From Candidatus Kuenenia stuttgartensis (GTDB lineage Bacteria; Planctomycetota; Planctomycetia; Pirellulales; UBA1268): DNA of 44,196 nucleotides. Below the pieces are notes generated by a model. That model did not search any database. It was not told the origin of the DNA and was given only the letters and a program-made list of their open reading frames with translations. Made by a program: the position numbers and the translations under genes. The stretch spans positions 1 through 44,196 of the forward strand of contig CAMBSN010000016.1 in assembly GCA_945870505.1 (NCBI GenBank), written 5' to 3'. Below, piece after piece: positions 749-36,332 of this stretch (its first letter is position 1; every line of letters starts with the position of its first letter).

Positions 749-1012
749 GTAGCACAGGTTGTCAACCTGTGGCAAATCCCACCTCGTAGCACAGGTTGTC
801 AACCTGTGCAAACCCCGCCGCTCGGGGCTGCCCATGCCCCATCGCCGGACGTTCGCATCGGGCATCCTGCCCGACACTCACTGCATGTCCGCTGCGCTTC
901 GCCATCCTGGCTGCGCTTGCTTCCATAGCCCGGCTCCGGGGCACGGGCAGCCCCTCGCTCGTCGTTCTTGCTCCGATCCCCCCCGCCACGTAGCACAGGT
1001 TGGCAACCTGTG
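749..1012 (+). repeat. Repeat cluster 1: A, A, B, A
   Basis: This fills the 415-bp convergent gap between the Cys-rich gene and clpS. A hairpins lie at 749-771, 786-808 and 990-1012, each GTAG followed by CACAGGTT, three bases, AACCTGTG. The B element spans 824-954. Its terminal inverted arms are 824-840 and 938-954 (one A-C mismatch). Internal hairpins are at 858-874 (TCGGGCA-TCC-TGCCCGA, perfect) and 901-911 (GCCA-TCC-TGGC). Short frames read through the cluster have no credible gene; I see nothing else here. Confidence 0.9.
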
Positions 1013-1044
1013 CCGAACTCCGGCGAGGTCCGCCCGTTGCTCGG

Positions 1045-1407
1045 CTAGCCCGTGCTGGCTTCGGGCTCAATCGACGCCGACATCGAGCCCTTGGAGCGGG
1101 CGAGCAGCCGGTCGGCGCCGAAGGCGTGGATCTGTTCACGCTTGAGCTCCGCGTGCTCCTTGGTGGTCGTGAGCACGATCACGCGGCCGTCCTTGTCGAC
1201 CTGCTTCGCCAGCGTGAAACCCTTCTCGGGCGGATGGCCGAAGAGCTGGCGAAGCATGGCGACCACGTACTGGTAAGTGTGATCATCGTCGTTCCAGAGG
1301 ATGACGTGGTAACGCGGCTGCCGCTTTGGCCGGTCCTTGGGCCGAGGCGCGTCGGCCTCGGGCAGTGACACTGGCGGCTCGGTGATGGCACTGGCGGAGG
1401 CGGGCAT
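1045..1407 (-). CDS. clpS: ATP-dependent Clp protease adaptor ClpS
   Basis: A 120-residue adaptor that delivers N-degron substrates to the ClpAP-type protease. The ClpS core begins about residue 31 (RYHVILWNDDDHTYQYV) and carries the NDD-H binding motif and the later KEHAELKREQIHAFGAD segment with the second His expected in the N-degron pocket. The frame is open further upstream, but ATG at 1407 is chosen because GGAG lies about 12 bases before it and the extra N-terminus is unlike the family. The 30-residue Pro/Ala-rich leader is longer than in E. coli. No clpA is in the window. It is divergent from serS. Confidence 0.93.
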   Translation of the reverse strand: MPASASAITEPPVSLPEADAPRPKDRPKRQPRYHVILWNDDDHTYQYVVAMLRQLFGHPPEKGFTLAKQVDKDGRVIVLTTTKEHAELKREQIHAFGADRLLARSKGSMSASIEPEASTG

Positions 1408-1522
1408 GTGTCTGGCAAACTCCGGGCCCGGGCGATTCCCGGACGGTCCCACCCCCACAGTATAAACGTCGTCGCCGGGCCGCTCACGGCCCCCGCGCCG
1501 TCTCTTTTCGCCGGAGTTTGCC
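1408..1522. promoter_or_regulatory. Shared divergent promoter region of clpS and serS with inverted repeat
   Basis: The 115-bp gap is bounded by a perfect 12-bp inverted repeat: GGCAAACTCCGG at 1414-1425 and CCGGAGTTTGCC at 1511-1522. Each arm carries the GGAG used as Shine-Dalgarno for its own gene, so both mRNAs share the same ribosome-binding sequence. The only AT-rich patch, AGTATAAA at 1459-1466, reads TATACT on the minus strand (possible -10 for clpS) and TATAAA on the plus strand (possible -10 for serS). I see no good -35 for either. Confidence 0.5.
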
Positions 1523-2800
1523 GTGCTCGACCGCCGCTTTGTCGCCGACAACATCGATCTCGTCGCCGCTAACTGCCGGGCCCGCGGATCGTCGGCCGAC
1601 ATCGCGAAGTTTGCCACCCTCGACAAACTGCGGCGGCAGTTTCAGGCCGACATCGACCGTCTCAACGCCGCTGCCACCCAGGTGAGCAAGTCGATCGGCA
1701 AAGCGGCCGACGCGGCCGAGCGAGAGGCCAAGAAGACCGAGGGTCGCCGGCTCCGCGAGGAGATCTCCGCGCTCGAATCGAAGTCGGCGGAGATCGTGGC
1801 CGAGGCCGATGCCATCCTCCGCGCCGTGCCCAACCTCACGCATCCGGCCGCCCCCGTGGGTGGCGAAGACGCTGCCGTGGAGGTCCGCCGCGGACAGCAT
1901 CCGCCGCGGGCGTTCGACTTCCAGCCGCTCGACCACGTCGAGATCGGCGGCCGCCTGAAGCTCTTCGACTTCGAGGCAGGCGCCCGCGTGGCCGGGCACG
2001 GCTTCTACTTCCTCACCGGCGACGGGGTGCTGCTCGAACTCGCCCTGCAGCGATATGCCGTCGAGATCCTCATGCGCGAGGGCTTCACGGTGATGACCAC
2101 GCCCGACCTCGCCCGCGACTCGATCCTCGAGGGCACGGGCTTCATGCCCCGCGGCCCAGAGACCCAGATCTACTCGATCAACGACTCCGACCTCTCGCTG
2201 ATCGCCACTGCGGAGATCACGCTCGGCGGCGCCTACCACGAGCGAATCTTCGAGGCGGCCGAACTGCCGCTCAAACTCTGCGGCATCAGCCACTGCTTCC
2301 GCACCGAGGCCGGCGCCCATGGCCGTGCCACCCGAGGGCTCTACCGCGTGCACCAGTTCACGAAGGTGGAGATGTTTGCCTTTACTCTTCCCGAGCAGAG
2401 CGCGGCGATGCACGATCAACTCCTCGACCTCGAGTGCCAGATCTTCGACGGGCTGGGCATTCCCTATCGGGTGATCGATACCGCGTCGGGAGACCTCGGT
2501 GGCCCCGCTTACAGGAAGTTCGACCTCGAGGCCTGGATGCCCGGCCGCGGTGAGGCGGGGGAGTGGGGCGAGGTGACGAGCACCTCCAACTGCACCGACT
2601 ACCAGTCGCGGCGGCTCGCGCTCCGCTACCGGACACCGGGCGAAAAGGGGACGCAGTTCGTCCACACGCTCAACGGCACCGCCGTGGCGATCAGCCGGGC
2701 GATCATCGCGATCCTGGAGAACCACCAGAACGCCGACGGCACGATCACGGTGCCGGAGCCACTCGTGGCGTGGATGGGCAAGCGAACGATCGGCGGCTGA
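1523..2800 (+). CDS. serS: Seryl-tRNA synthetase
   Basis: A 425-residue class II synthetase that charges tRNA-Ser with serine in the cytoplasm, close to the usual family length. Residues 1-110 form the coiled-coil arm that contacts the tRNA long variable arm (QFQADIDRLNAAATQVSK, then charged heptads). The catalytic domain shows motif 2 (FRTEAGAHGRATRGLYRVHQFTKVE) and motif 3 (NGTAVAISRAIIAILENHQ), where the class-II arginines sit. The start is GTG (1523-1525), 8 bases after GGAG; no nearer ATG gives a complete N-terminus. Followed by a convergent hairpin region and the S1-domain gene. Confidence 0.97.
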   Translation: MLDRRFVADNIDLVAANCRARGSSADIAKFATLDKLRRQFQADIDRLNAAATQVSKSIGKAADAAEREAKKTEGRRLREEISALESKSAEIVAEADAILRAVPNLTHPAAPVGGEDAAVEVRRGQHPPRAFDFQPLDHVEIGGRLKLFDFEAGARVAGHGFYFLTGDGVLLELALQRYAVEILMREGFTVMTTPDLARDSILEGTGFMPRGPETQIYSINDSDLSLIATAEITLGGAYHERIFEAAELPLKLCGISHCFRTEAGAHGRATRGLYRVHQFTKVEMFAFTLPEQSAAMHDQLLDLECQIFDGLGIPYRVIDTASGDLGGPAYRKFDLEAWMPGRGEAGEWGEVTSTSNCTDYQSRRLALRYRTPGEKGTQFVHTLNGTAVAISRAIIAILENHQNADGTITVPEPLVAWMGKRTIGG

Positions 2801-2810
2801 CCGGTTTGGG

Positions 2811-2901
2811 AAAGCCGAAGGCCGTAAGGCCTCGGGCGCGGTCACGCGTGACGCAGCGTTTGTTTTGGCCGCGTCCCACGCCTTACGGCGTTGGGCTTGG
2901 A
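2811..2901. repeat. C-type nested hairpin between convergent serS and S1 gene
   Basis: An AAAGCCGAAGGCCGTAAGGC arm at about 2811-2830 faces a partly complementary CGCCTTACGGCG-TTGGGCTT arm at about 2879-2899. Each arm contains its own small hairpin (GGCC-GTAA-GGCC and CGCC-TTAC-GGCG). A related copy of the left half occurs at 12547-12598. Its position between two convergent 3' ends suggests bidirectional termination or mRNA 3'-end protection (inference). Confidence 0.6.
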
Positions 2902-2921
2902 CGCAGTCCGGATGCCGCTGC

Positions 2922-4580
2922 TCACCACCGCAGGCCGAACTTCTCGCCCTGCGACTGGTTCCCGCCGGTGCCGCCCTTGAGGGGCGTGTTCCGCTTCTTG
3001 GCCACCGGCGGCTGTGCCTCAGGCTCTTCGGCCTCCGGCTCCTCGGACCCAGGCTGCTCCTTCGCCGTGGGCGCCGGTGCGAGCGCCTTGATCGAGAGCG
3101 ACATCCGTTGTTCGTCGGGGTCGACCGCGATCACGCGGCACTCGACCTGCTGACCCTCGCGGGCCACGTCGCTGACGCTGCGGATCCGCCGCGTGGCGAG
3201 TTCCGAGATGTGCACGAGCCCCTCGACACCGGGCTCCAGCTTCACGAATGCACCGAACTGGGCGATCCGGCTGACGACGCCCCTCACCGTGGCGCCCACG
3301 TGATACTTCTCGTCCGCCCGCTTCCACGGGCTCTCGATCAGATCGCGGGCCGAGAGGCCGATCTTGCCGGTCTCGTGGTCCACCTTCTTGACGACCACGC
3401 GGACCTTCTCGCCGGCCTTGAGCACGTCGGCCGCGCTCGCCACGCGATCCCACGAGAGTTCGCTGACGTGGATCAGGCCCTCGACGCCATTGCCGATGTC
3501 GACGAACGCACCGAAATCGCGGACCGAACGGACGATGCCGTCGAACTCCACTCCGGGCTCGAGTGTTTCGAGCAGCTTGGTCTTGGCATCCGCCGCCTGC
3601 TTCTCGATGACCGCCCGCCGCGAGAGCACGAGCCGCCGGGCCTCAGGGACGATCTCGGTAACCAGGCTGTCGAGCGTCTGGCCCACCATTTCCTCGAGGT
3701 TCTCGATTCGCCAGGTGCTCACGAGGCTCGCCGGCATGAAGCCGCGGAGGCCGGCGACCTCGCACTCGAGGCCTCCCTTGTTGGCGGCCGTGACGCGGGC
3801 TTCCACGATCATCCCCGCCTGGATCTGCGTCCAGTCTTCAACGGAGACGGCGCGGTTGGCGAGGGCCACGTCGTAGAGGCTGTCGTCGTCATTGCGGGAG
3901 CCGACCGACACCTCGATCGAGTCGCCGACCGCCGGGAGATCGAGGCCAGCATCGAGGAGCCCAGCGAGTTTCATGGCACCCTGGCGGCGACCGCCGAGAT
4001 CCACGAACGCCGTGTCGGGTCCGATCGAGAGTACCGTCGCCATCAGCCGCGAGCCCGGGTCGATCGGCGCTTCGGCTTTTGCAGAGGCGCCGGCGTCGAG
4101 CAGGTCATCGATCGCCACGCCCTCGAGCGCCGCCTCGAAGTCGGCTTCGAGATCCTCGTCGAGGCCGCCGCGGATGCTGGGCACGGCGACACGGCGGGCC
4201 GGCGGCAGCACGTCGGTGAACGACCTCGGCTTGTCGTCACGGCGGCGGTCGCGGCGGCCACGGCCACCATCCCGCGGGCCGCGGCCTTCCGATTTCAGTT
4301 CGCCGCCACCCTGGGCTGGAGCACCGCCTTGCGGTGGAGCCGCGTCTGACGTCGGTGCGGCGGCATCAGCAGGTCCAGCGTCATCCGTCCGTGGTGCGGG
4401 CGGAGCAACGTACTGGTACTTCGGCGCGAGCGACGGCGGCGTCACCCCGGCGCGCTGCGTGCCGATCTGGATCCGACGCGGCGAGGCCGCAGCCTCTGAC
4501 TGGGACGCGGACTCGGACTGGGCCGTGGCGTCCACGGGCTCCGACGGGTCCGTGGGCGAGGGGTCTGGGTTCGTGGTCAT
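2922..4580 (-). CDS. Four-S1-domain RNA-binding protein, ribosomal protein S1-like
   Basis: A 552-residue protein. Residues 1-170 are low-complexity (acidic/Ser/Pro, then a Gly-Arg-Asp-rich stretch near 98-120). Four S1 OB-fold domains follow at about 176-242, 256-324, 343-413 and 428-499, the last two most canonical (GAFVDIGNGVEGLIHVSELS; GAFVKLEPGVEGLVHISEL). A short Glu/Pro tail ends the chain. S1 proteins bind mRNA at the ribosome. Four domains and a long N-terminal tail differ from the six-domain proteobacterial S1, so this could be the main S1 or a paralogue. ATG at 4580 is chosen because upstream codons run towards tRNA-Leu. It lies 51 bp after the tRNA on the same strand with no terminator between. 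Confidence 0.85.
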   Translation of the reverse strand: MTTNPDPSPTDPSEPVDATAQSESASQSEAAASPRRIQIGTQRAGVTPPSLAPKYQYVAPPAPRTDDAGPADAAAPTSDAAPPQGGAPAQGGGELKSEGRGPRDGGRGRRDRRRDDKPRSFTDVLPPARRVAVPSIRGGLDEDLEADFEAALEGVAIDDLLDAGASAKAEAPIDPGSRLMATVLSIGPDTAFVDLGGRRQGAMKLAGLLDAGLDLPAVGDSIEVSVGSRNDDDSLYDVALANRAVSVEDWTQIQAGMIVEARVTAANKGGLECEVAGLRGFMPASLVSTWRIENLEEMVGQTLDSLVTEIVPEARRLVLSRRAVIEKQAADAKTKLLETLEPGVEFDGIVRSVRDFGAFVDIGNGVEGLIHVSELSWDRVASAADVLKAGEKVRVVVKKVDHETGKIGLSARDLIESPWKRADEKYHVGATVRGVVSRIAQFGAFVKLEPGVEGLVHISELATRRIRSVSDVAREGQQVECRVIAVDPDEQRMSLSIKALAPAPTAKEQPGSEEPEAEEPEAQPPVAKKRNTPLKGGTGGNQSQGEKFGLRW

Positions 4581-4631
4581 GGGAACCGGGAGCGAGGCGG
4601 CCGGAGTTCGCGGAAGAAACAGAGAAGAAAC

Positions 4632-4715
4632 TGCGGGAAACAGGACTTGAACCTGCACGGTATTACTACCACCAGGCCCTCAACCTGGCGCGTCTGCCAA
4701 TTCCGCCATTCCCGC
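4632..4715 (-). tRNA. tRNA-Leu (anticodon GAG)
   Basis: Reading the minus strand, an 84-nt cloverleaf has a 7-bp acceptor stem (GCGGGAA with TTCCCGC), a D-arm, an anticodon stem CCAGG/CCTGG around loop TTGAGGG (anticodon GAG, reads CUC/CUU), a long variable arm typical of class II tRNAs, and a T-arm with TTCAAGT. The discriminator base is A. The 3' CCA is not encoded and must be added post-transcriptionally. It lies upstream of, and on the same strand as, the S1-domain gene. Confidence 0.96.
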
Positions 4716-4790
4716 GGCGAGATCAGGTCGTTGGAGCCCGAGAGGGCCACCACCAACCGAGGATCGCGTCATTCTCGACCGGTTTTCCGG

Positions 4791-5369
4791 TCAGTCAAGC
4801 GGCCGGGGTGAAACCGCCTGCGGACGGAGCCGGCGCGTGGCCGCAGCCTCCGCAGCCATCCTTGCGGCCACGATCAGCCCGAAGGTGGCGACCGTCCAGG
4901 CGGCGTCGCCCACGGGCATCCAGCGGTAGAAGGGCAGTGCCGCCACGAAGCACTCGCCGAGGCCAGCCATCGTGTGAGAGTAGTCGGCCGTGAAGGCCCA
5001 GTGGGCGAGATTGGTGCTCACAAAGAAGACGAGCGAGGTGGCGAGGCTGCCACCCACCACGGCCAGCCAGCGGGGCCGATGCCGGCCGAGGATTCCACAC
5101 GTGCCGAGCAGCACTGGCCAGGCCGTCGCGGCATAGACCACGGCGGCAACACCCAGGTTGCCGTAACCAGGCAGCAGCATATTGCTCAGCGCGAGGGCCG
5201 CCAGCGGCACGCTCGCGGCAACGAGTGGGTTGGCAAACAGAAAACCCGCGGCGAGGGCCACGGCAGCGAGCGGCGTGGCGTGCCAGAGCGGCTCACCGTT
5301 CCAGGTCGGCTGCCAGAGCCTGCCAGCAGCAGCGAGGGCGACGAGCGCAAGCCAGACAGCCGCCTGCAT
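4791..5369 (-). CDS. DUF6580-like integral membrane protein
   Basis: A 192-residue, strongly hydrophobic protein with about five to six predicted membrane helices. The segments FFVSTNLAHWAFTADYSHTMAGLGECFVAALPFYRW and PLAALALSNMLLPGYGNLG match what I know of the DUF6580 family, whose function is unknown. ATG at 5369 starts just before the first helix, with GAGG about 10 bases upstream. An in-frame ATG at 5447 with GGAGG nearby would add 26 polar residues and remains possible. A 6-bp hairpin GACCGG-TTTT-CCGGTC (4777-4792) overlaps the stop codon but has no U-run. Divergent from fadB. Confidence 0.72.
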   Translation of the reverse strand: MQAAVWLALVALAAAGRLWQPTWNGEPLWHATPLAAVALAAGFLFANPLVAASVPLAALALSNMLLPGYGNLGVAAVVYAATAWPVLLGTCGILGRHRPRWLAVVGGSLATSLVFFVSTNLAHWAFTADYSHTMAGLGECFVAALPFYRWMPVGDAAWTVATFGLIVAARMAAEAAATRRLRPQAVSPRPLD

Positions 5370-5538
5370 CGACACCGAACCTCGGGCCGATGTGGAGTCT
5401 CCGGTTAGTGGCCTCGTTCCGGCCGATTTGTGGGCGTGGTTCACCATGAACGCTGCATCCTCCGTGCCTCGAGGTCCGAGCCCATGTCATGCACCCGCAG
5501 CGGCAACCGCTGAGGCCGCTGTGGCCCGGGAAATCTGC

Positions 5539-5550
5539 CGATACACTACC
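5539..5550 (+). promoter_or_regulatory. Possible -10 region upstream of fadB
   Basis: CGATACACTACC contains a TACACT -10-like hexamer 49 bases before the fadB start. The identical 12-mer occurs on the minus strand at 33124-33135, upstream of the secreted Ntn-hydrolase. No -35 at 17 bp is recognisable in either place, so this is only a candidate. Confidence 0.25.
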
Positions 5551-5595
5551 GGTTTTGGTCCTGCAGGCAAGCGAAACGGACGAAAGCACCCCGAA

Positions 5596-7767
5596 ATGCC
5601 CGCGATCGACCGTGATCTGGAGACGCTGGCCCTCGAGCGAGACGCCGACGGGTTCGTGCGGCTCACCGTCACCGTGCCGGGCCATCGGCAGAACGTGCTC
5701 ACGCAGCGGGTGATCGAGGAACTCTCCCGCGTTCTCGACCAGCTTCATGCCGAACGGCCGCGAGGCGTGATCCTGCTGTCTGGTCGGCCTGGCAGCTTCT
5801 TCGCCGGGGCTGACCTCTCGCGGTTGGAAGAACTTGGCACGCTCCCGACCGCCGAGATCGCCGACCTGTGCGACCGCGGGAAGGCCGTGTTCGCCAAGCT
5901 ATCGGCGTCGTTTCCCACGGCGGCGGTCATCGACGGCACCTGCCTTGGTGGCGGTCTGGAACTGGCCCTCGCCTGCGATCTTCGGGTGGCGACGTCTGAA
6001 AAACACACCGTGCTTGGTCTGCCCGAAGTCAAGCTCGGCCTCTTGCCCGGCTGGGGTGGCACGGTCCGTCTTGCCCGGTTGATCGGGCCAGGCCCCGCCG
6101 TCGAACTGGCGGCATCGGGCGAGACTCTCGACGGTGCCGCCGCTGGGCGGCTCGGAGTCGTCGACGCCTGCGTGCCGGCCGCGGAGGCGGTTGAGTCGGC
6201 TCGCCGACTGCTCGTTCTTCGTGGCGACGACGGGTTTATCGCCGCCCGCCGTCGCCGGATGTCCGCGCCCGTCGATCTCGATTCGGTGGAGCGGGCGTTT
6301 CTCGAGGCCACGACCGCCGCGGTGATTCTCGGCCGTACCGGTGGCCACTATCCGGCGCCCCCCGCAATCCTCCGCACGATTCTCGCAGGCGCCTCGGTCG
6401 ATGCCGCGGCGGCGTCGCGGATCGAATCGGAGGCGTTCGCAAAACTCGCCGCAACACCAGTCGCCCGAAACCTGCTCCGGGTGTTCGCGATCGGCGAGCG
6501 GAATCGCCGCGACTCCGGGGTCGATACCACATCGTGCGGCGAGCCATCGCCGGCGGCCGCGCCGGCAGTCGTGGGTGCTGGGATCATGGGGGCCGGGATC
6601 GCCGCGAGCCACCTCCGGGCGGGCCAGCCCGTCACGGTTGTGGACATCAACCCCGAGGCCCTTGCCGCAAGCGTGCCGGGCATTCTCGCGGAAGCCGCGT
6701 GGGATCGCCTGGCAAAGCGGCCCGACGAGGCGCGTGCGCTCCAACTCACGGGCCACCTGCGGACCTCCACGAGCTTCGCCGCCCTCGCCGCCGCCGACAT
6801 CGTGATGGAGAGCGTGACGGAGCGGCCCGACATCAAGCAGCAGGTGCTCGCCGAAATCGAACGCATGGTGGGCCCCGGCACCGTGATCACCACCAACACC
6901 TCGACCAATCCGATCGGTCGCCTGGCCGCCGGCCTCACCGATCCCTCCAGGTTCTGCGGGTTGCACTTCTTCAACCCTGTGCGGCGCATGACGCTCGTCG
7001 AGATCGTGCGTGGGCCGGCGACGAGCGACGCCACGGTGGCGAGTGCCGTTGCCCACGCCAAGCGGCTCGGCAAGTGCCCGGTCGTGGTCAACGACAGCCC
7101 TGGCTTTCTCGTCAACCGGATCCTGATGCCCTACCTGCACGAGGCGGGCGAGTTGCTTCGCGAGGGCGTGTCTGCCGAGCGGCTCGACCGTGTCGCCCGC
7201 GGGTTCGGCATGCCGATGGGCCCGATCGAACTCTACGACATGATCGGGCTCGACACCGCCTTCTATGCGGGCCTCGTGCTCAGTGCCGCCTACGGAGACC
7301 GGATCGAGGCCTCGCCCGTGATCCCGGCCCTCGTGAAGGCGGGGAAGCTTGGCCGCAAAACGGCCGCAGGGTTCTATCGGTATGCGGAAGCCGGCCCGCA
7401 CGGTCGGATCGTGGGCCGCGACGACAAGGCGACCGAGGTGATCGCCCGCTATGCCTACCCGCCGCGCGAGTCGAGCGACCGCACGATCGTGGATCGTCTC
7501 TTCCTGCCGATGCTGCTCGAGGCCCTCCGCGGTCTGGATGAGAATCTCGTCCGCGACGGCCGCGACATCGACCTCGCCGTGATCCATGCCCTCGGTTTTC
7601 CGGCGTTTCGGGGAGGGCTGCTCGCCTGGGGTGACTCGCTGGGGGCTGCCGAGGTGGTCCGACGGCTCGAGCCGCTCGCCGAACTCGGCCTGCGGATGAA
7701 GCCCACCGAACGACTGCTCGCCCATGCCTCCAGCGGCCGACCGCTCACCGGGGAAGTCTTGCCATGA
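5596..7767 (+). CDS. fadB: Fatty-acid oxidation multifunctional protein (enoyl-CoA hydratase / 3-hydroxyacyl-CoA dehydrogenase)
   Basis: A 723-residue bifunctional alpha subunit catalysing hydration of 2-enoyl-CoA and NAD-dependent oxidation of 3-hydroxyacyl-CoA. Hydratase domain 1 to about 190: oxyanion segment FFAGADL (68-74) and both catalytic glutamates, E122 (GGGLE) and E144 (GLPE). Dehydrogenase domain: GAGIMGAG nucleotide fold at 327-334, catalytic dyad H457 (LHFFNPV) and E469 (VEIVRG), spaced 12 residues as in E. coli FadB. Two C-terminal 3HCDH domains follow. The long open frame upstream (from 5182) is antisense to the DUF6580 gene and not family-like; ATG 5596 gives the normal length. 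The stop overlaps the fadA start (ATGA). Confidence 0.95.
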   Translation: MPAIDRDLETLALERDADGFVRLTVTVPGHRQNVLTQRVIEELSRVLDQLHAERPRGVILLSGRPGSFFAGADLSRLEELGTLPTAEIADLCDRGKAVFAKLSASFPTAAVIDGTCLGGGLELALACDLRVATSEKHTVLGLPEVKLGLLPGWGGTVRLARLIGPGPAVELAASGETLDGAAAGRLGVVDACVPAAEAVESARRLLVLRGDDGFIAARRRRMSAPVDLDSVERAFLEATTAAVILGRTGGHYPAPPAILRTILAGASVDAAAASRIESEAFAKLAATPVARNLLRVFAIGERNRRDSGVDTTSCGEPSPAAAPAVVGAGIMGAGIAASHLRAGQPVTVVDINPEALAASVPGILAEAAWDRLAKRPDEARALQLTGHLRTSTSFAALAAADIVMESVTERPDIKQQVLAEIERMVGPGTVITTNTSTNPIGRLAAGLTDPSRFCGLHFFNPVRRMTLVEIVRGPATSDATVASAVAHAKRLGKCPVVVNDSPGFLVNRILMPYLHEAGELLREGVSAERLDRVARGFGMPMGPIELYDMIGLDTAFYAGLVLSAAYGDRIEASPVIPALVKAGKLGRKTAAGFYRYAEAGPHGRIVGRDDKATEVIARYAYPPRESSDRTIVDRLFLPMLLEALRGLDENLVRDGRDIDLAVIHALGFPAFRGGLLAWGDSLGAAEVVRRLEPLAELGLRMKPTERLLAHASSGRPLTGEVLP

Positions 7768-12463: not shown

Positions 12464-12546
12464 GCTTTTGGCAGGCGGGTGAGGCGAAACCTTTCGGGTT
12501 CGTCACCGTTCAACTGATACGGATCGCATATGAACCGTGTGGTATT

Positions 12547-15879: not shown

Positions 15880-15887
15880 CGTCTCCC

Positions 15888-16206
15888 GTAGCACAGGTTG
15901 CCAGTAGCGCAGGTTTTCAACCTGTGGCGCCCGGCACTCGCTTCGCGCTCGCTCGGGGCTGCCCATGCCCCGTCGCCGGACGTTCGCTGCGGGCATCCTG
16001 CCCTTCGCTCTCTCGATGCCGGCTGCGCTTCGGCATCCTGCCTGCGCTGGCCGCCAACGCCGGCTCCCGGGGCACGGGCAGCCCCTCACCGTCTTCCGTA
16101 GCACAGGTTTTCAACCTGTGGCGCCCCTCGCCGTCTCCCGTAGCACAGGTTGTCAACCTGTGCCCCCCTCGCCGTCTTCCGCCGTAGCACAGGTTTTCAA
16201 CCTGTG
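15888..16206 (+). repeat. Repeat cluster 2: half-A, A, B, A, A, A
   Basis: This fills the 338-bp convergent gap between the DUF1501 gene and sppA. A truncated A (15888-15900) abuts full A copies at 15904-15926, 16098-16120, 16140-16162 and 16184-16206. The B element spans 15955-16085 (arms 15955-15971 and 16069-16085), with internal hairpins GGGCA-TCC-TGCCC (15991-16003) and GGCA-TCC-TGCC (16032-16042). The second hairpin differs from cluster 1 by a C-G to G-C swap that preserves pairing. Confidence 0.9.
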
Positions 16207-16217
16207 CCCCCCCTTAC

Positions 16218-17255
16218 CTACTCGCTTCGCACGAGGGCGGGGAGCCAGTTGCAGAGATACCAGCCCCGCGGCGTGGTGAGTTCGGCGATCGCGGCGAGAT
16301 CGACGCGGCCCGTGGGCGAGGCCCCGCCGAGCACTTCGTCGAGCAGCCCCTTCGGCTTCGTGTATTTCACGACACGGGCCTTGTCCGCAGAGAGTCCGGC
16401 CAGTTCCACCGCGCGGTCGATCGCCTCCTCCTGAAACCCGATCCGGTCGACGAGACCTGCCTCGAGCGCCTGCCGTGCGGTGAAGATCTGCCCCGTGGCG
16501 ACCCTGTCGACCGCGGCGTCGTCGAGCTTCGGCCGACCGGCCTTCACGATCTCTTTGAACCGCCGGAACATGTCGTCGACCAGTTCCTGGATGATTTTCC
16601 GTTCCTTCTCCGCGAGTTCCGGCGTGCGGTCCTTTGAGACGCTGAGCATCTCCTTGAGCGGTCCGCTGGCGATCGAGTCGTCGCGGATGTCGTACTTCCG
16701 CAGCGCCTGCGAGATGTCGAAGTGCGGGATGATCACGCCGATGGAGCCGGTGAGCGTGGCTGGTTCGGCGAAGATCACGTCGTCCTTTCCGCGGTTGGCC
16801 ATCGCCACGTAGTAGCCACCACTGGCTGCGATGCCACCCATGCTCACCACCACGGGGATGTCTCGCTTCTCCACAAGCTTGGCGAGGCGGTGGTGAATCT
16901 CGTCACTGCCGCTGACCGTGCCGCCAGGGGAGTCGACCCGCAGCACGATCGCCTTCACCGCCTCATCCTCCTCCACCTGGTCGAGCTGCGCCCGCACGAA
17001 GCCGTCGCCGCCGAGAATGGCACCGGTGACGCTGACGATGGCCACCTTGTCGGCCGCGAGTTTGGAGAGCGAATGCCACTTCTCGACCACGCGGCTGTCT
17101 CGCTGGAAATACTTCGAAAAGGCACCGGCGCTCCCGATGGCCGAGAGCACCGCAATGCTGGCAACGATCCAGCCCGCTCGTGCGAACCAGCGACTCCAGG
17201 GGTTCGCCTGTTCGAGAATCACCCGCGTCGGTGGCTGCTGCGATTCGATCTGCAT
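16218..17255 (-). CDS. sppA: Signal peptide peptidase SppA (short form)
   Basis: A 345-residue membrane-anchored serine protease of the S49 family that digests cleaved signal peptides. One N-terminal transmembrane helix (about 27-46) is followed by the protease domain. The nucleophile is S145 (GGIAASGGYY) and the general base K201 (GPLKEML), at spacing like Bacillus SppA; DSPGGTVSGSDEI forms the upstream oxyanion region. The length matches the single-domain form rather than the tandem E. coli form. It is divergent from the TIM-barrel gene (208-bp gap); its 3' end faces repeat cluster 2. Confidence 0.94.
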   Translation of the reverse strand: MQIESQQPPTRVILEQANPWSRWFARAGWIVASIAVLSAIGSAGAFSKYFQRDSRVVEKWHSLSKLAADKVAIVSVTGAILGGDGFVRAQLDQVEEDEAVKAIVLRVDSPGGTVSGSDEIHHRLAKLVEKRDIPVVVSMGGIAASGGYYVAMANRGKDDVIFAEPATLTGSIGVIIPHFDISQALRKYDIRDDSIASGPLKEMLSVSKDRTPELAEKERKIIQELVDDMFRRFKEIVKAGRPKLDDAAVDRVATGQIFTARQALEAGLVDRIGFQEEAIDRAVELAGLSADKARVVKYTKPKGLLDEVLGGASPTGRVDLAAIAELTTPRGWYLCNWLPALVRSE

Positions 17256-18210: not shown

Positions 18211-18222
18211 GCGCGCCGCTCT

Positions 18223-18460
18223 GGGCTGCCCATGCCCGTCGCCGGACACTCGCTACGGACCTCCAGGCCTTCGCTCGCTCGATGCTGACTTCGCTCCGCC
18301 ATCCATGGCTGCGCTTGTCAGCAACGCCGGCTCCCGGGCACGGGCAGCCCCTCGCTGCCTCTTCTCGTAGCGCAGGTTTTCAACCTGTGTGTCTTCCCGG
18401 TTCGCATTGGGCTCGCGGCATCATCGCTTGCATGTGCGATTCCGGAAGGGGGAGCAGCCG
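18223..18460 (+). repeat. Repeat cluster 3: B, A and shared right flank
   Basis: This occupies the 258-bp convergent gap between the TIM-barrel gene and the TPR gene. The B element spans 18223-18351 (arms 18223-18237 and 18336-18351). A lies at 18367-18389, with GCGC replacing GCAC, which leaves a G-T wobble in the stem. The sequence to about 18460 (TCTTCC, GGTTCGCATTGGGCTCG, GGAAGGGGGAGCA) is nearly the same as at 31923-31987, so about 250 bp is duplicated between the two loci. The TPR gene stop codon (18469-18471) lies just beyond the shared part. Confidence 0.9.
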
Positions 18461-18468
18461 GTTGCGGC

Positions 18469-24906: not shown

Positions 24907-24921
24907 CCGGCGGCGCGACGC

Positions 24922-26283: not shown

Positions 26284-26408
26284 TCGGTAGGTCTCCAGCG
26301 GCTCGAAGAAGGCCGCGACCGGTGGTCGCCGCCCCGCCGCCGAAGTCTAGCCCTGCCGGGCAGCGCGAGCAATCCGCGCGAGCGGAGCACGGCCCGTGCA
26401 ACGCGTCG

Positions 26409-27812: not shown

Positions 27813-27917
27813 CGCGGGCCTGGGAGAGGGGGCGGGACTATAGGCCCGTGCTCTGGACGGTCGCAAGCCCGGGGAAAGGCTGGTTTCCGGCGAAAAAGCA
27901 GCCTGTCCCCATCGTTC

Positions 27918-28204
27918 GGGGCTGCCCATGCCCCGTCGCCGGACGTTCGCTGCGGCCATCCGTGGCCTCCGCTCACTCGATGCTTCCTGCGCTTCGCCGG
28001 GCACCGATCCGCCGCAGGCGGATTGGTCGTGGCTCCGCTGGGAAGCAACGCCGGCTACGGGGCACGGGCAGCCCCTCGCTGCGTTCGTTGCCTTGATTCG
28101 TTGCCTTGAGTAGCACAGGTTTTCAACCTGTGTCTGTCCAGCATGGCGGCTCGGGGTTGCCCCTCGCTGCGTTCTGTCTTCGTAGCACAGGTTGTCAACC
28201 TGTG
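27918..28204 (+). repeat. Repeat cluster 4: B with nested palindrome, A, B remnant, A
   Basis: The 473-bp gap between mfd and the foldase holds a 158-bp B element (27918-28075). First hairpin: GGCCA-TCCG-TGGCC (27954-27967). The second hairpin region is interrupted by an extra palindrome, CCGATCCGCC-GCA-GGCGGATTGG (28004-28026). A copies lie at 28110-28132 and 28182-28204. A collapsed B remnant (CGGGGTTGCCCCTCGCTGCG, from about 28152) looks like a deletion joining the two B arms. 27813-27917 is the foldase leader, and 28205-28285 shows nothing recognisable. Confidence 0.88.
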
Positions 28205-28285
28205 CCTGTCTGCCTCGCCGCGGTTCGCGTCTGCGCTGGCGATTTCAGAAAGCCCCGAGCGATAGGGAGGGGATGGAGGCTGGCG

Positions 28286-31200: not shown

Positions 31201-31588
31201 GCCTTGGCCCGTCGGGAGTGGCGAGCCGTTTGACGACGGCGAGCCGCTCAGCGTCGGCGGGATCGTCCGTTGGTCCCCCGTCCTCGCCAAGACTCTCCAC
31301 CGCGGGGAGGAGCAGGGCCGGGAGGTCGCTGAACAGGGCGAAGTCGTCGACAAAGGCTTCCGCCTCCGCCGCGTGGGGCAGAACGACGACGAGCGTGCCA
31401 GCTTCGGAGGCCCGGGCCCTCACCACGGCCGCTAGCGCCAGCGCAGACGCCGATCCCCAGGTTCCACCGATCGTCCCGCCGTGTCCCTCGCGAAGGGCGG
31501 CGATCACATCGGCGAACCCACGGTGCGCGTCGAGTGTTTGAGCCAGGTCGAGCAGCCGTCGATCCGGCCGGCGGGCGTCATGTGCCAC
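28286..31588 (-). CDS. mfd: Transcription-repair coupling factor
   Basis: An 1100-residue translocase that removes stalled RNA polymerase and recruits UvrA. The UvrB-like N-terminal region covers about 1-330. The RNA polymerase-interaction (CarD-like) domain is near 420-490 (LHEGDYIVHVSHGIGRYKGLKLL). The helicase core has GDVGYGKTEL near 577 (Walker A), DEEQRFG near 677 (Walker B), TATPIPRTLHMSM, and QLRGRAGRSHHRSWCYLL. The TRCF domain forms the C-terminus. GTG 31588 (MAHDARRPDRRLLDLAQ) is chosen because the open frame beyond runs into B repeats and is not family-like; its SD is poor, so the exact start is uncertain. Confidence 0.95.
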   Translation of the reverse strand: MAHDARRPDRRLLDLAQTLDAHRGFADVIAALREGHGGTIGGTWGSASALALAAVVRARASEAGTLVVVLPHAAEAEAFVDDFALFSDLPALLLPAVESLGEDGGPTDDPADAERLAVVKRLATPDGPRPPLVVTSIQALLAPLADPREIEAGTRRLALGGRLDPEELADWLGARGWRLVDAIDTPGTFARRGGIVDLYAADWDRPVRIELFGDEIESLRTFDTVTQRSVASVDHVDLTALAVASGTRHTHLADLLPPGSVWVLVEPAEVTEEAKRLHDRLGVAAGLFAPEDLFARMHRLPSVALSAIATTSLDASATLAVESVERFTGVLDRVKEELETVGKDQEVWVVAPSDAEEKRLGELLADSAPARGKRLHFARGHLSAGFRLVPEKLVIVSSGELFRREDAVRRPTKQRLTRAIDTFLDLHEGDYIVHVSHGIGRYKGLKLLEKHGRTEEFLDIEFAESTRIYVPASCIELVQKYVGGTKLAPKLAKIGGTSWEKQKQAVQKAVADMAADMIRLQAMRESRPGMPFPADTPWQRQFEESFPFDETPDQLTAMEAIRDDMQRPRPMDRLLCGDVGYGKTELAMRAAFKAAESGAQVAVLVPTTVLAEQHRRTFTARFAEFPFTVRCLSRLTPLAEERDTLEGLARKSVDIVIGTHRLAQADIHFANLGLVIVDEEQRFGVDVKERLKALRASVDVLTMTATPIPRTLHMSMLGIRDISNLTTPPTNRMAVETRVARWDTGLVRNAIERELSRGGQVFFVHNRIHDIHKVSHRIQQIVPEATIAIVHGRLSETELEEQMVAFVAGRADILLATTIIESGLDIPNANTIFIDEADTYGLADLHQLRGRAGRSHHRSWCYLLVDETARLTSTAAKRLRAIQEFSSMGAGFSLAMRDLEIRGAGNLLGTQQSGHIATVGYELYCRLLEQAVRGIKALPPAEPPPVNVDLPGEAWLPRDYIPDLRAKIDVYRRLSRATAESQIDELATELADRFGPVPDEARRLLEFTRLKALAVGLGIDSITRHPGLVVIGHHDRAAMEKLRIAAGTRGGTVRIVDQKTVVMPVHESTAADPDRLLAAVRTLLKPQAPQRRPTKPTAKS

Positions 31589-31666
31589 GCGTGTGGTTGT
31601 ACCCGATCTCCGTCCGGCTGACGCGTCATGTGGGTTGCATTTGATCGTGAGGCGTTCACGAGGCTC

Positions 31667-31987
31667 GGGGCTGCCCGTGCCCGTCGCCGGACGTTCGCGA
31701 TGCCAGAAAGCCTCATCGCGTAAGCGATGGGGGCCTTCGCATGGTGCGCCGCTCGAGGCTGCCCATGCCCGTCGCCGGACACTCGCTACGGCCCTCCAGG
31801 CCTTCGCTCGCTCGATGCTGACTTCGCTCCGCCATCCATGGCTGCGCTTGTCAGCAACGCCGGCTCCCGGGCACGGGCAGCCCCTCGCTGCCTCTTCTCG
31901 TAGCACAGGTTTTCAACCTGTGTGTCTTCCGGGTTCGCATTGGGCTCGCCGCATCATCGGCCTCATGTGAATCCGGAAGGGGGAGCA
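31667..31987 (+). repeat. Repeat cluster 5: partial B, full B, A and shared right flank
   Basis: In the 464-bp gap between mfd and the Ntn-hydrolase, a left B fragment (31667-31756, with a perfect-type arm GGGGCTGCCCGTGCCC) precedes a full B (31757-31884) and an A copy (31900-31922). From about 31757 to 31987 the sequence is almost identical to 18223-18460, including the segment after A. The 25 bases before 31667 (GATCGTGAGGCGTTCACGAG) match 36102-36122, so B5 and B6 also share a left extension. Nothing else is recognisable in the gap. Confidence 0.88.
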
Positions 31988-32052
31988 TGCCTCCGGCCGG
32001 CTGCGGCTGCTTCTGCGGCGCAACGACGCGAGAGGTTCACGTGCGACGCGTG

Positions 32053-33093
32053 TCAGTCGGGCTTCGCCGGCAGGAAAGCAAACGGCTCGGCCGGTTTCAG
32101 CGACCCCGAAGCATCGCCGCTGTAGGTCTCGCCAGCCTTGAGGGCAAGTCGCTTCACTGGGGCGCCGGCGTCGAACGAGAGGCTCTCGAGCGGCAGCCAG
32201 AACACCGTGGGGCTGGTGGCCGAGTCGAAGTACATCACGCGGTCCTTGTGGTCATACACCGTGCGCCAGATGGTGCTGGCGATGTTGGGCTTGTCAGGCA
32301 CGGTGAATCCGAGCGGCACCGACACCCCGCGGATCACGCTGAAGATCTGGGCGACCGCCCGCTTCGGGTCAGCGGTCTGCGGGAGGTTCGACACATAGAA
32401 CGCCGCCCGAGCAAAGCGGTCGGCCGCCCGGTTGGTGCCGGGGAGCATCGTCAGGCCGCCGATCTCCTTCCAGTAGGCGTTGAGGGCGAGCTGCTGGTCG
32501 AACGTGGGCGAGTTGGTCATCACCTGGAACTGCCGGCCGTGATGGACGACGAGTTCCCCCTTCACGTATTCAAGGATCGCCGAGTCGCCCGTGGGATCGG
32601 AGATCGCCATGTGGCCGACGGCCGGTTCACCATTGGGCAGGATCGGGGCGCTGAGCGCGAAGGGTTCCTTCTCGAGCGCCGCCACCGCCTCGTTCACCGT
32701 GGCGAACGAGTCGAGCACGTACTGCGTCCAGCAGGCGATCGACATGTTCGGTCTGCCTGCCGCCGATCGGCCGTAGTCACTCTCGACGAGGTAGAGCGTG
32801 TTGGCCACGAGGCCCTTTTCGTTGATGCCGTCCACGGCGGCGATCCCGTAGAAGGAGACGACCGCCGAGCCGTAGCGGCTCGTCCATTCGAGCGAGCCTG
32901 GGCCGGCGGCGCCGTTCCGCTTCATGCCGCGGGGAAAGACCCAGACTTCCGAGCCGGGGTCCTCGACCCAGTCCATCGATCGGGCCACCAGCACGGTGTC
33001 GTTCGGTCCGAGATAGACACACCGCGTGCATGCCTGGGCGGCGGTGGCGAGGGCCATGAGCACAGCGGCGGCGACAAGGAACTGACGATGCAT
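32053..33093 (-). CDS. Secreted Ntn-hydrolase, choloylglycine hydrolase / penicillin V acylase family
   Basis: A 346-residue linear-amide C-N hydrolase. The signal peptide ends AQA, and the next residue is Cys22 (CTRCVYL), the expected N-terminal nucleophile. Signal cleavage would therefore expose the catalytic Cys directly. Further family signatures are ARSMDW (Arg and Asp near the nucleophile), GINEKGLVANTLYL, HMAISDPTGDSAILEYV, QVMTNSPTFDQQL and TIWRTVYDHKDRVMYFDS. It could act on bile-acid-like amides, N-acyl amino acids or N-acyl-homoserine lactones; sequence does not decide. ATG 33093 follows GGAG at 10 bases. Divergent from the FAH-family gene. Confidence 0.9.
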   Translation of the reverse strand: MHRQFLVAAAVLMALATAAQACTRCVYLGPNDTVLVARSMDWVEDPGSEVWVFPRGMKRNGAAGPGSLEWTSRYGSAVVSFYGIAAVDGINEKGLVANTLYLVESDYGRSAAGRPNMSIACWTQYVLDSFATVNEAVAALEKEPFALSAPILPNGEPAVGHMAISDPTGDSAILEYVKGELVVHHGRQFQVMTNSPTFDQQLALNAYWKEIGGLTMLPGTNRAADRFARAAFYVSNLPQTADPKRAVAQIFSVIRGVSVPLGFTVPDKPNIASTIWRTVYDHKDRVMYFDSATSPTVFWLPLESLSFDAGAPVKRLALKAGETYSGDASGSLKPAEPFAFLPAKPD

Positions 33094-33280
33094 GAAAGGA
33101 ACTCCCGATTTGAGCGAATCCAAGGTAGTGTATCGCTTCGATAGGTGGAGAGCGCCGCCGCCGGGCGGGCGGTGAAAGCCTCGCCTTCGGACGGGAAGGA
33201 TATCCCGACTCGGCTCGACTTCCCCCGACCCGCCAGGCTGCCGAGTTCTGACGGCACTCACGAGTGAGGAGCAAACACCC

Positions 33281-34081
33281 ATGAAGATCGTCCGGTTTCT
33301 TTCTGGTGGTTCCGAGCACCTCGGTCGGTTGCACGATGACGGTCCAGTAACGCTCTTGGAGGGTGAGCTCTTTGGGACGCTGCACGACACTGGTCGGCAG
33401 GTCGAGGTGGAAAAACTTCTCGCCCCGCTCGAACCTCGCGACATCATCTGCGTGGGGCTCAACTACAAGAAGCACGCGGCCGAGAGCGGCGCCGAACCAC
33501 CCCTGCATCCGGTCATGTTCATGAAGAACTCGGGGGCGGTGCAGAATCCTGGCGACCCGATCCTCCTGCCGCGGCGGCTCCGGAGCGACCGGGTGGATTA
33601 CGAGGCGGAACTCGCCGTGGTCATCGGGAAGACCTGCCACAACGTGCGCCGCGAGGACGCCTTCGTCCACGTCCTCGGCTACACCTGCGGCAACGACGTG
33701 TCGGCCCGCGATTGGCAGCGAAACGGCGGCGGCGGGCAGTGGTGCCGGGGTAAGTCGTTCGCCACCTTCTGCCCGCTCGGCCCGGCGATCGTGACCACCG
33801 ACGAGATCTCCGATCCGAGTACCCTTGGCATCCGCACGATCGTCGGCGACCGGGTGCTGCAGGATTGCACCACGGCCGACATGATTTTCGACGTCCCGGC
33901 GATTGTGGAGTTCTTCTCGGCGAGCATGGTCCTCCGGCCAGGTACCGTGATCCTCACGGGCACCCCCCACGGGGTCGGCTTCGCCCGGAATCCGCCGGTT
34001 TTCCTCCAGTCGGGCGACACGGTGACCGTCGAAATCGACCGGATCGGCCGCCTGACCAATCCGGTGGCGGAAGAGGCGTAG
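33281..34081 (+). CDS. Fumarylacetoacetate hydrolase-family enzyme
   Basis: A 266-residue protein with a short N-terminal domain and an FAH catalytic domain from about 55. Divalent-metal ligands are visible in [12 protein letters not shown] (Glu-x-Glu) and [14 protein letters not shown] (Asp). [16 protein letters not shown] and [23 protein letters not shown] are typical of the 5-oxopent-3-ene/2-oxo acid hydrolase or oxaloacetate tautomerase/decarboxylase branch, so the substrate is open. ATG 33281 has TGAGGAGC about 10 bases upstream. ilvB follows after 88 bp on the same strand. Confidence 0.92.
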
Positions 34082-34169
34082 CGGCAGGGGTGGCGGTTTT
34101 TCGGGCCGTTTTCATCGTGTATGGTTGAGGGACTGTCTTCCGGTCCCAGTCGCCCTCAGGAGCCTCCCC

Positions 34170-35948
34170 ATGGCCACCGTCTCCCGTCCGTCGAAAGCGT
34201 CCGAAGCCTTCGCTTCCGGGGCCGATGTGGTCGTTGAGTCGCTCGTGCGGCACGGAGTTGATGTGATCTTCGCCTACCCGGGCGGGGCGAGCATGCCACT
34301 CCACCAGGCGCTCACTCGTTACAAGGATCAGATTCGCACGATCCTGCCGCGGCATGAGCAGGGAGGCGCCTTTGCGGCCCAGGGCTACGCCCGCACGACC
34401 GGCAAGCCGGGCGTCTGTATGGGAACGAGCGGTCCTGGTGCCCTGAACCTCGTCACCGCGATCGCCGACGCCAAGCTCGACAGCATTCCGCTGGTGGTGC
34501 TCAGTGGGCAGGTGGGCACCAGCGTGATCGGCACCGACGCGTTCCAGGAAACGCCGATGGTGGAGGTCTGCCGCGGAATCACGAAGCACCACTACCTCGT
34601 GACCGACGCCAACGACATCGCCAGGGTGATGAAGGAGGCCTTCCACATCGCGACGACTGGCCGCCCCGGCCCGGTGCTCGTCGATCTGCCGAAGAACATC
34701 CAACTCACCCAGATCGTGCCCGACTACGACTGCCCGATGAATCTACCTGGCTATAAGCCGGAGCAGCGGAAGTCGGCCCCGGCCGAACAGATCGCGCAAG
34801 TCGTCGCGGCCATCAAGCGGGCCAAGAAGCCGGTGATCTACGCCGGCGGCGGCGTGATCGCTTCGGATGCCTCTGAGGAACTGCGAGCGCTCGCCCGGAA
34901 GACGGGGATCCCGGTCACCATGACGCTCATGGGCCTCGGAGCCTACCCGGGCGATGACCCGCTCTCGCTCGACATGCTCGGCATGCACGGCAGCGTCTAC
35001 GCCAACTACGCGGTGGATGAGGCCGACCTGCTGCTCGCCATCGGCGTGCGGTTCGATGACCGTGTGACGGGTAAGGTCGAGGCCTTCGCCGAGCACGGGT
35101 TCATCGTCCACATCGACATCGATCCGTCCGAGATCAATAAGAACAAGGTCGTGCATGTGCCGATCGTGGCCGACGTGAAGACAGCCCTCGGGCAGCTCAA
35201 CGCGATCGTCGAGCGGCCGGTGGCCGACCTCGCTCCCTGGCACGCCCAGATCGCCGAGTGGAAGAAGGAGGATCCGTACTCCTTCGACACCTCGTATCCA
35301 GGCATCCTTGCCCAGGAGGCGATTCAGGCCCTTTCCCGGCTCACCGGCACGCGGGACACCGTGATCTCGGTGGGCGTGGGCCAGCACCAGATGTGGGCTG
35401 CCCAGTTCTTCACGTTCCGCGAGCCTCGCACCTGGCTCTCCTCCAGCGGCCTGGGCACGATGGGCTTCGGTCTGCCAGCAGCGATGGGAGCCAAGGTGGC
35501 CCGGCCCGAGGCGATCGTCGTGGACATCGACGGCGACGGCAGCATCCTGATGAACATTCAGGAGTTTGCCACCTGCAAGACCGAGAACATTCCGGTGAAG
35601 GTGCTGCTTCTCAACAACCAGCACCTCGGCATGGTCGTGCAGTGGGAGGACCGGTTCTTCAAGGGTAACCGGGCCCACACCTACCTCGGCCCGGTCGATC
35701 ATCCGGAGGCCTTCGGCGAGGGCGACGGCATCTCGCCGGGCGACCGCTACCCCGACTTTGTGATGGTCGCGAAGGGCTTCGGGTGGCAGGCCGAGACGAT
35801 CTCGGCGAAGAAGGACCTCGTGCCGGCGCTCGAGCGGCTCATCGCCGCCGAAGGGCCGGCGATCCTCGACGTGCAGGTGCCCTATCAGGAGCAGGTCCTG
35901 CCGATGATCCCGTCGGGCATGACGGTCCGCGACCTGATCAAGAAATAG
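34170..35948 (+). CDS. ilvB: Acetolactate synthase large (catalytic) subunit
   Basis: A 592-residue ThDP enzyme, first step of branched-chain amino-acid synthesis. Catalytic Glu63 (PRHEQGGAF) contacts ThDP. The ThDP/Mg motif [19 protein letters not shown] begins near 455. The FAD-binding middle domain includes [16 protein letters not shown]. The N-terminal fold is [20 protein letters not shown] lies 8 bases before ATG 34170. The regulatory subunit ilvN, often next in the operon, is absent here; the gene is followed instead by a hairpin and repeat cluster 6. Confidence 0.96.
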
Positions 35949-35949
35949 C

Positions 35950-35980
35950 GCGGCCGGGGCATCCATACCCCCGGCCGCTT
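35950..35980 (+). terminator. Hairpin directly after ilvB
   Basis: A perfect 10-bp GC stem, GCGGCCGGGG (35950-35959) with CCCCGGCCGC (35969-35978), closes a 9-base loop, right after the stop codon. It is followed by only TT, so U-run support is weak. Confidence 0.65.
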
Positions 35981-36003
35981 GGCCCTTCGCTGGCCCGAGA
36001 AGT

Positions 36004-36332
36004 GGGTGCAGGTTGTCAACCTGCACACGCAACCCGCGAAGTCCCGCAGCCGGCCGGCGACATGCTCGGCTCTTTCGGCAAGCGAGTCATACCGGTCACG
36101 CTTGATCTTGAGGCGTTCACCAGGCTCGGGGCTGCCCGTGCCCGTCGCCGGACACTCGCTACGGCCTTCCTGGCCTTCGCTCGCTCGATCCTGACTTCGC
36201 TCCGCCATCCATGGCTGCGCTCGTCAGCAACGCCGGCTCCCGGGCACGGGCAGCCCCTCGCAACCTCCCGTCGCACAGGTCTTCAACCTGTGTTTGTCCT
36301 CTGCCCCCCGTAGCACAGGTTTTCAACCTGTG
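36004..36332 (+). repeat. Repeat cluster 6: variant A, B, A, A
   Basis: In the 454-bp convergent gap between ilvB and the secreted helical protein, a variant A (GTGCAGGTT-GTC-AACCTGCAC, 36005-36025) shows two base pairs exchanged on both sides of the stem. The B element spans 36128-36257 (arms 36128-36143 and 36242-36257, perfectly complementary), with inner hairpins GGCC-TTCCT-GGCC and GCCA-TCCA-TGGC. A copies follow at 36270-36292 (one loop-adjacent mismatch) and 36310-36332. 36333-36402 shows nothing further. Confidence 0.9.

Follow-up and report, generated by a model that had tools for sequence, protein, structure and literature searches.

A stretch of 44,196 nucleotides (the window in what follows), which is one contig (CAMBSN010000016.1) of a planctomycete draft genome (assembly GCA_945870505.1; G000), was analysed for a dispersed repeat of about 131 bp that is referred to here as element B. 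The draft genome comprises 3.35 Mb in 180 contigs and is 87% complete. The window carries six copies of B and one solo end, which are listed in Table 1 with the strand that is kept foldable. The six loci had been named in a preliminary description of the window, and all were confirmed at their positions by sequence and recovered by the genome-wide model. The copy at 18223 starts with T (18222) in place of the first G, and the copy at 31757 starts with GAGG, from 31755. The balance of the evidence slightly favours B as a non-autonomous, REPIN-like mobile DNA element that is moved in single-stranded form by a trans-acting enzyme.

A hidden Markov model (HMM) built from the six window copies identified many more copies, as well as the partial left end (31667-31701). 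The alignment of B was constructed from 135 of 148 copies (those with long insertions were left out), which were reduced to 96 non-redundant copies and then to the 59 diverse copies of alignment A1. The covariance model R1 was built from A1, which includes the copy 18218-18355. At least 150 places in G000 were scored by the covariance model, and at least 146 of them cover the whole model (one at just 57 bits). The census of the assembly is at least 145 full copies, which excludes a chance origin of B. Most copies are 127-135 nt long.

Solo ends of B (about 14-50 nt) recur, both in the window (31667-31701) and at other loci (L006 at 1412; L117 at 6406 and 6489; L345, L357, L359, L343, and L346). 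Contigs often break within B, at contig ends of G000 (L366 and L367) and in named metagenome-assembled genomes (e.g., L095 and L104), so identical copies are probably under-counted. The composite of B, a second repeat (repeat A), and a tail (244 bp, window 18218-18461) is dispersed in G000 and G015 with about 81-95% identity. The 26-nt hairpin of copy 4 (CCGATCCGCC..GGCGGATTGG) occurs in the hairpin 2 loop of eight of 144 own copies. It is also found in some other genomes, and elsewhere this loop is replaced by other hairpins. The G005 orthologue of the copy at 27918-28075 is without the 26-nt hairpin.

Table 1. Copies of element B in the window, parts of its fold in copy 2, and associated sites.
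Feature	Position	Strand	Remarks
B copy 1	824..954	-	Flanks GCTC / TCGC
B copy 2	15955..16085	-	Flanks GCTC / TCAC; anatomical reference
B copy 3	18222..18351	-	Left part of dispersed composite unit 18218-18461
B copy 4	27918..28075	-	Extra 26-nt hairpin inside hairpin 2 loop
B copy 5	31755..31884	-	
B copy 6	36128..36257	-	
Solo left end of B (remnant)	31667..31701	-	Found by HMM seeded with the six window copies
Terminal stem P1, left arm	15955..15972		Copy 2
Terminal stem P1, right arm	16068..16085		Copy 2
Stem P2, left side	15976..15979		Pairs with 16060-16063, copy 2
Stem P2, right side	16060..16063		Copy 2
Arm P3 with hairpin 1 (15991-16003)	15982..16012		Contains TC/TC internal loop (GA/GA on minus strand)
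Arm P4 with hairpin 2 (16032-16042)	16014..16059		Carries seven of the nine top covarying pairs
TC at left junction of copy 2	15953..15954		One TC only in clean related empty sites of other copies
TC at right junction of copy 2	16086..16087		
Related empty site GGGCTCGCGG	18373..18436	+	GGGCTC-B-TCGCTG in the same repeat at locus L005

The fold of B consists of a long closing stem (P1), a short stem (P2), and a junction from which two hairpin arms (P3 and P4) extend. The three hairpins of the preliminary description are better described as a terminal stem that closes a junction with two arms. P1 consists of 16-18 pairs, and both P1 and P2 are present in the minus-strand RNA folds of all four copies tested. 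The three-way junction with P3 and P4 is present in the minus-strand folds of the copies at 820, 18218, and 36124. Both hairpins also form in copy 2 (15951), where the minimum-energy junction is drawn otherwise. The RNA fold energies of the copies at 15951, 18218, 820, and 36124 are -94.3, -81.3, -95.4, and -88.5 kcal/mol on the minus strand and -84.6, -68.3, -76.5, and -76.2 kcal/mol on the plus strand. The minus strand is also more stable than the plus strand in all four copies when DNA parameters are used. All eight RNA folds (four copies, both strands) beat all 200 shuffles. Seven of the eight DNA folds beat all shuffles, and the plus strand of 18218-18355 was equalled or beaten by one of 200.

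The fold reaches into the flanking tetranucleotides, which are GYTC before B and TCRC after B. The G-C and Y-R pairs of these flanks enclose an internal loop of TC/TC (GA/GA on the minus strand). This outer loop is TC/TC in 56 and TC/GA or GA/TC in 23 of the 96 copies. In the loop at the P3 base, 95 of the 96 non-redundant copies and 99 of 106 own-genome copies have TC/TC. Tandem G.A pairs in such a context are stable in both RNA and DNA. TNCGCT-like motifs flank each hairpin. The substitutions in the hairpins are as previously noted, where hairpin 1 reads GGGCA/TGCCC in copies 1 and 2 and is of the GGCC type in copies 4-6, and only copy 2 has GGCA/TGCC in hairpin 2. In copy 3, hairpin 1 contains a mismatch.

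The stems of B covary. Pairing is found in 97.8% of the stem cells of A1 (88.9 on average after shuffling), and both-side changes are found in 22 of 36 pairs as compared with 8.3 after shuffling and 3-9 with slid partners. None of 500 shuffles attains any of five pairing measures, and sliding the stem partners cuts pairing to 35-44%. Stem positions that vary independently, which had been put forward as an observation that would speak against folding, were not seen. The nine top-ranked of 9870 column pairs are all pairs of the fold (96 sequences, tree-based null, 40 simulated alignments), which was itself partly read from the same column-pair table. The null is heavy-tailed owing to the subfamily structure, so that just two pairs rise above all of its values, and five pairs have E of up to 0.025.

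The mismatches in the stems are one-sided. They were counted in own-genome copies, since L050-L149 were fetched by a left-arm pattern that biases the arms, and 10 of 144 copies with long insertions were left out. The stem cells of the 106 non-redundant copies show 204 A.C and 39 G.T mismatches on the plus strand. Copies that lean to A.C (G.U on the minus strand) number 85, and those that lean the other way number three. In a previous set of 44 own-genome copies, 40 of them non-redundant, the counts are 66 A.C versus 14 G.T mismatches. A plus-strand A.C is a minus-strand G.U, and the minus strand is therefore the one kept foldable. Plus-strand B tends to lie on the G/T-rich strand, and a bias of C-to-T changes there would be expected to push in the opposite way. 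The earlier remark that A-C mismatches become G-U pairs in minus-strand RNA thus extends to the whole B family and is the strongest single clue. The proposal that paired substitutions reflect a folding constraint is likewise supported by the covariation and by these counts. B has a conserved fold that is constrained on one strand.

The position of B relative to genes was determined in 41 stretches (792,792 nt) that were picked for holding B and annotated with a home-made gene caller. B is found in 36 of 73 convergent gaps, 36 of 253 co-directional gaps, and none of 82 divergent gaps. B as a coding sequence is rejected, as its copies share no common frame and only one of 86 lies inside a called gene. 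Of 40 copies in co-directional gaps, 24 have the foldable minus strand as the gene strand (p 0.27). The orientation of B matches the sign of the GC minus AT skew in 63 of 86 copies, and so does the majority orientation in 27 of the 33 stretches that have one. The agreement stays at 63 of 86 after B has been removed and after correction for gene strand, and it is found in 35 of 43 copies in the strong-skew half versus 28 of 43 in the rest. Control sites do not agree to the same extent, with 209 of 384 for intergenic GYTCRC (Fisher p 0.0016 versus B) and 182 of 332 for repeat A, and the short motif CTC is slightly opposite (1459 of 3079), which is a caveat to the strand control. B pairs on single contigs have the same orientation in 83 of 126 cases as compared with 63.9 expected (p 0.002). 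This clustering is present at 1-30 kb and is not seen at 30-120 kb (15 of 27, p 0.37). The orientation of B is therefore biased with strand composition, which suggests a tie to replication strands (through entry or biased loss).

Repeat A consists of GTAG with CACAGGTT/AACCTGTG and resembles a GTAG-type repetitive extragenic palindrome (REP). It is found in the window at 747-797, 15902-16232, 28180-28230, and 36268-36358. There are 332 copies in the 793 kb, and 74 of 86 B copies have one within 150 nt. Repeat A occupies 51 of 73 convergent, 43 of 253 co-directional, and two of 82 divergent gaps.

The same observations bear on whether B acts mainly as RNA, either as a minus-strand-transcribed element of gene 3' ends (terminator or mRNA stabiliser) or as a trans-acting RNA, selected by the host. 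The confinement of the G.U-type constraint to one strand, the occurrence in convergent gaps and the absence from divergent gaps, and the conserved loops with a conserved tandem-GA internal loop would all be consistent with such a function, and B exhibits a conserved fold with covariation support as a structured RNA family does. However, covariation in a dispersed repeat does not alone imply a functional RNA. The co-directional copies exhibit no clear tie to transcription, the orientation bias tracks strand composition even after gene-strand correction, the presence of B at a given gene pair varies between species, and no Rfam match above chance was obtained. A main role as RNA is possible but unlikely. 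B as a known RNA is rejected, as the Rfam search gave one tRNA in the window and chance-level matches on copy 2. A sponge for CsrA-type proteins that bind GGA loops is also rejected, since TCG replaces TCC in the loop of at least 10 of 96 copies (hairpin 1) and 7 of 96 copies (hairpin 2), and the hairpin module is rare outside B (three intergenic cases in 793 kb). Elsewhere in the window, the tRNA is a tRNA-Leu (gag) at 4632-4715 on the minus strand. An open reading frame (3-629) contains tandem repeats spaced at 42/48 nt (1-438) and would encode a repetitive protein if coding.

The junctions were counted in the 144 own copies whose flanks extend for 20 nt or more. The dinucleotides at the left and right junctions are TC/TC in 104 copies, GA/TC in 17, TC/GA in nine, others in 14, and GA/GA in none. 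TC/TC is retained in 38 of 66 copies after relatives by left flank have been removed and in 38 of 59 after relatives by right flank have been removed, with GA/GA absent from both. The consensus of the target is GYTCRC with a core of YTC on the plus strand. B is often nested in other repeats, which can show the empty version. A candidate related empty site was identified for 18 of 144 copies, of which five are clean, have a single TC, and belong to two repeat contexts. The first context (L242, L040, and L262) reads GGGCTC-GC when empty and GGGCTC-B-TCGC when occupied. The second context (L272 and L014) reads GGCGGATC-GC when empty (in L033) and GGCGGCTC-B-TCGC when occupied.

Mixed junctions also bear on the origin of the paired changes. 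Much of the paired change may be mutational, through template switching between hairpin arms, and such a process might co-exist with a mobile element. Templated correction of hairpin arms can give paired identity without selection, and arm-templated correction is a known process at quasipalindromes. GA/TC and TC/GA junctions without any GA/GA are the states expected from arm-templated correction of TC/TC, and the L287 site reads GGCGA where its relatives read GGCTC. The preliminary description, which took the paired substitutions as selection on folding, stands as to the constraint and had not considered this process. However, template switching would not be expected to produce the one-strand excess of G.U over A.C (204 versus 39). 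The states of A1 columns 15/135 (G-C 22, G-U 15, A-U 20, A-C 1, and C-G 1) also follow the path that is expected from a step-wise pairing constraint. Template switching as the source of much of the paired change is distinctly improbable.

The inverted ends, the TC at both junctions, and the one TC in the five clean empty sites would also suit a classical miniature inverted-repeat transposable element (MITE), that is, a remnant of a DDE transposon that moves in double-stranded form by means of inverted ends of 17-18 bp and duplicates 2 bp of its target. Such movement is independent of target polarity and should yield TC/TC and GA/GA equally, as opposed to the 104 and 0 observed. TC is nearly always the junction dinucleotide and may thus belong to the element. 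No larger element with B ends was found among the isolated ends in the 793 kb, and double-stranded movement gives no reason for a one-strand fold constraint. B differs from a MITE of a DDE element in its polarity and is very improbable as a classical MITE.

B is present or absent at the same gene pair in different species. In the gap at window 15880-16217, B is present in G000 and in G009 (at a different position in the latter) and absent from G015, G021, G004, G010, G017, G002, and G014. The gap at window 18211-18468 holds B in both G000 and G015 with the same left junction and different subfamilies, and in G005 with a different left flank. Among the three roles that had been offered for B (structured RNA, mobile unit, or protein-binding fold), the mobile unit is favoured by the empty sites, the polarity, and the presence/absence.

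A match to B by DNA similarity was obtained in 35 of 60 genomes (G000 included). All 21 genomes of the same genus and 12 of 15 others of the same family have B, as compared with one weak match in 23 genomes of other families. G022, G023, and G034 are among the genomes that gave no match. A phylum-wide sample with stricter filters gave a match in one of 246 genomes, which is G000 alone. B is therefore near-restricted to one bacterial family of uncultured planctomycetes. Among the matches listed for the exact left-arm pattern (at least 100 stretches), the titles are those of planctomycete metagenome-assembled genomes and one isolate titled 'bacterium'. Several isolate names among these records suggest lakes. 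A phage or plasmid origin is rejected, as a phage collection and a plasmid collection gave zero matches to B. No description of the element was found in the titles or abstract openings listed by searches of an open-access library.

As a mobile element, B would work as follows. The minus strand folds into the closing stem P1, the short P2, and the junction with its two arms, and the folded single strand would be moved, probably at replication forks. An HUH-type or comparable structure-recognising enzyme may act on it in trans. Insertion, whose junction pattern has a fixed polarity, would occur at the short YTC-core target (GYTCRC) and would leave TC at both junctions. Harm from insertion between divergent promoters may be why copies are retained mostly at the 3' ends of genes.

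Several observations weigh against movement of this kind. Most of the candidate empty sites (13 of 18) are unclean. Eight are of the GGCTC-GGGGCC type (GGCTCGGGGCC) and may be deletion scars, two (L282 and L299) merely match B's own junction, two (L279 and L308) are weaker but compatible, and one (L295) is without TC. The differences between species do not separate gain from loss, and the strand bias could stem from biased loss of hairpins. No pair of copies with at least 98% identity and unrelated flanks was found, and the best pair is 97% identical, so recent movement is not shown. Contigs that break in B would hide identical copies and mask such movement. In addition, a mobiliser of B was not found among the Y1, Y2, IS110, and serine-recombinase genes. 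Y1_Tnp (RAYT type) is present in just 18 of 40 family genomes, B-rich G012, G013, G017, and G032 (93-97% complete) have no Y1 match, and B is found in none of 27 Y1 loci (all matches, up to 1.5 kb on each side).

RAYT as a neighbouring mobiliser is rejected on these genome and locus counts. IS110 is present in four of 40 family genomes, G000 not among them, with no B in the four loci, and an IS110 or bridge-RNA element is rejected for want of a transposase. Y2_Tnp is present in 27 of 40 genomes, often as short fragments, and no B was found in 30 fetched loci of a longer list, by which an IS91-like Y2 as neighbouring mobiliser is rejected. Many scattered short IS91-like Y2_Tnp fragments were observed in G030, G018, and G017 (L411, L420, L421, and others). 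Isolated end-like matches number 63 in the 793 kb of G000 and give four nominal facing pairs. The seven genes between facing ends are metabolic by Pfam with no transposase among them, and one pair encloses no gene. No autonomous parent with B ends was found among the isolated ends in these 793 kb, about one quarter of G000. Repeat A is absent near Y1 genes, which says little since its presence in those genomes is mostly unchecked.

Serine recombinase (resolvase) genes were identified in 20 of 40 family genomes. A serine recombinase would move B with TC/GA as the 2-bp crossover and with the circular junction GGGCAGCCCC-GA-GGGGCTGCCC as the dyad site. GA-core large serine recombinases offer a comparison for the junction of B, a non-palindromic 2-bp core would fix the polarity, and the target GYTCRC forms a short dyad. 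However, resolvase is missing from half of the family genomes, and one partial B was found in 30 fetched resolvase loci of a longer list (91.6 kb) versus about four expected from the B density of G000. B is thus no commoner in these 30 loci than density predicts, and a serine recombinase is rejected as a neighbouring mobiliser. A duplex circle of 132 bp is physically awkward, and the folding of the interior is left unexplained. This route is more improbable still than that of a classical MITE.

The closest known systems share some of these features. REPINs are described in passages of Bertels and Rainey (2011, PMC3116915) as non-autonomous and mobile, with two inverted end motifs, a long-hairpin fold, and common compensatory changes. 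B likewise exhibits inverted ends, a whole-element fold, compensatory changes, and about a hundred copies of one type, and it is dispersed and intergenic as REPINs are. Its ends read GGGGC-loop-GCCCC in many copies beside the tetranucleotide, where the left GYTC and the right (complement) GYGA differ. B differs from REPINs in that it is not made of two GTAG-type REPs (its end tetranucleotides are of the GYTC/GYGA type), its interior is a conserved branched junction instead of a free spacer, and no RAYT-type gene adjoins it. Tagged palindromes (GTAG and CGTC REPs) occur in planctomycetes too, and the CGTC class has no known transposase in the passages of Di Nocera (2013, PMC3733652) that treat it. 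B is likewise a tagged palindrome without a known transposase, and repeat A of the window resembles a GTAG REP, but B is several times longer than these REPs of 20-40 bp. The ends of B (GGGGCTGC) misfit the motif GGGGWSAS that the same source gives for RAYT-like terminal inverted repeats, and no transposase is adjacent.

IS200/IS605 and TnpA-REP systems, as outlined in parts of PMC8266576, resemble B in their strand-specific folded DNA, fixed polarity, short target, and link to the replication strand. They differ in that no Y1 enzyme lies near B and several B-rich genomes have none. ERIC and NEMIS, which passages of PMC3733652 present as bacterial MITEs with structured transcripts, are similar to B in their length of 70-300 bp, inverted ends, gene adjacency, and strong folding, whereas the fixed polarity and one-strand constraint of B are not predicted by double-strand transposition. 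In its working B resembles REPINs and MITEs, and it departs from REPINs in that no cognate RAYT was found and from MITEs in its polarity.

A bolder and rather unlikely proposal is that B represents a single-strand-DNA mobile element of a previously undescribed kind. Its branched minus-strand fold would have two tandem G.A loops as the recognition code, and B would be copied at replication forks into YTC sites in one polarity. The enzyme that serves it would read structure and belong to none of the Y1, Y2, IS110, and serine families tested.

Bacteria commonly carry small palindromic repeats, the spread of which is poorly understood. B provides about 145 natural copies in one genome and occurs in dozens of related genomes, with a measurable fold, junction, polarity, and strand bias. 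Single-strand versus double-strand movement thereby becomes testable for a repeat for which no RAYT partner was found.

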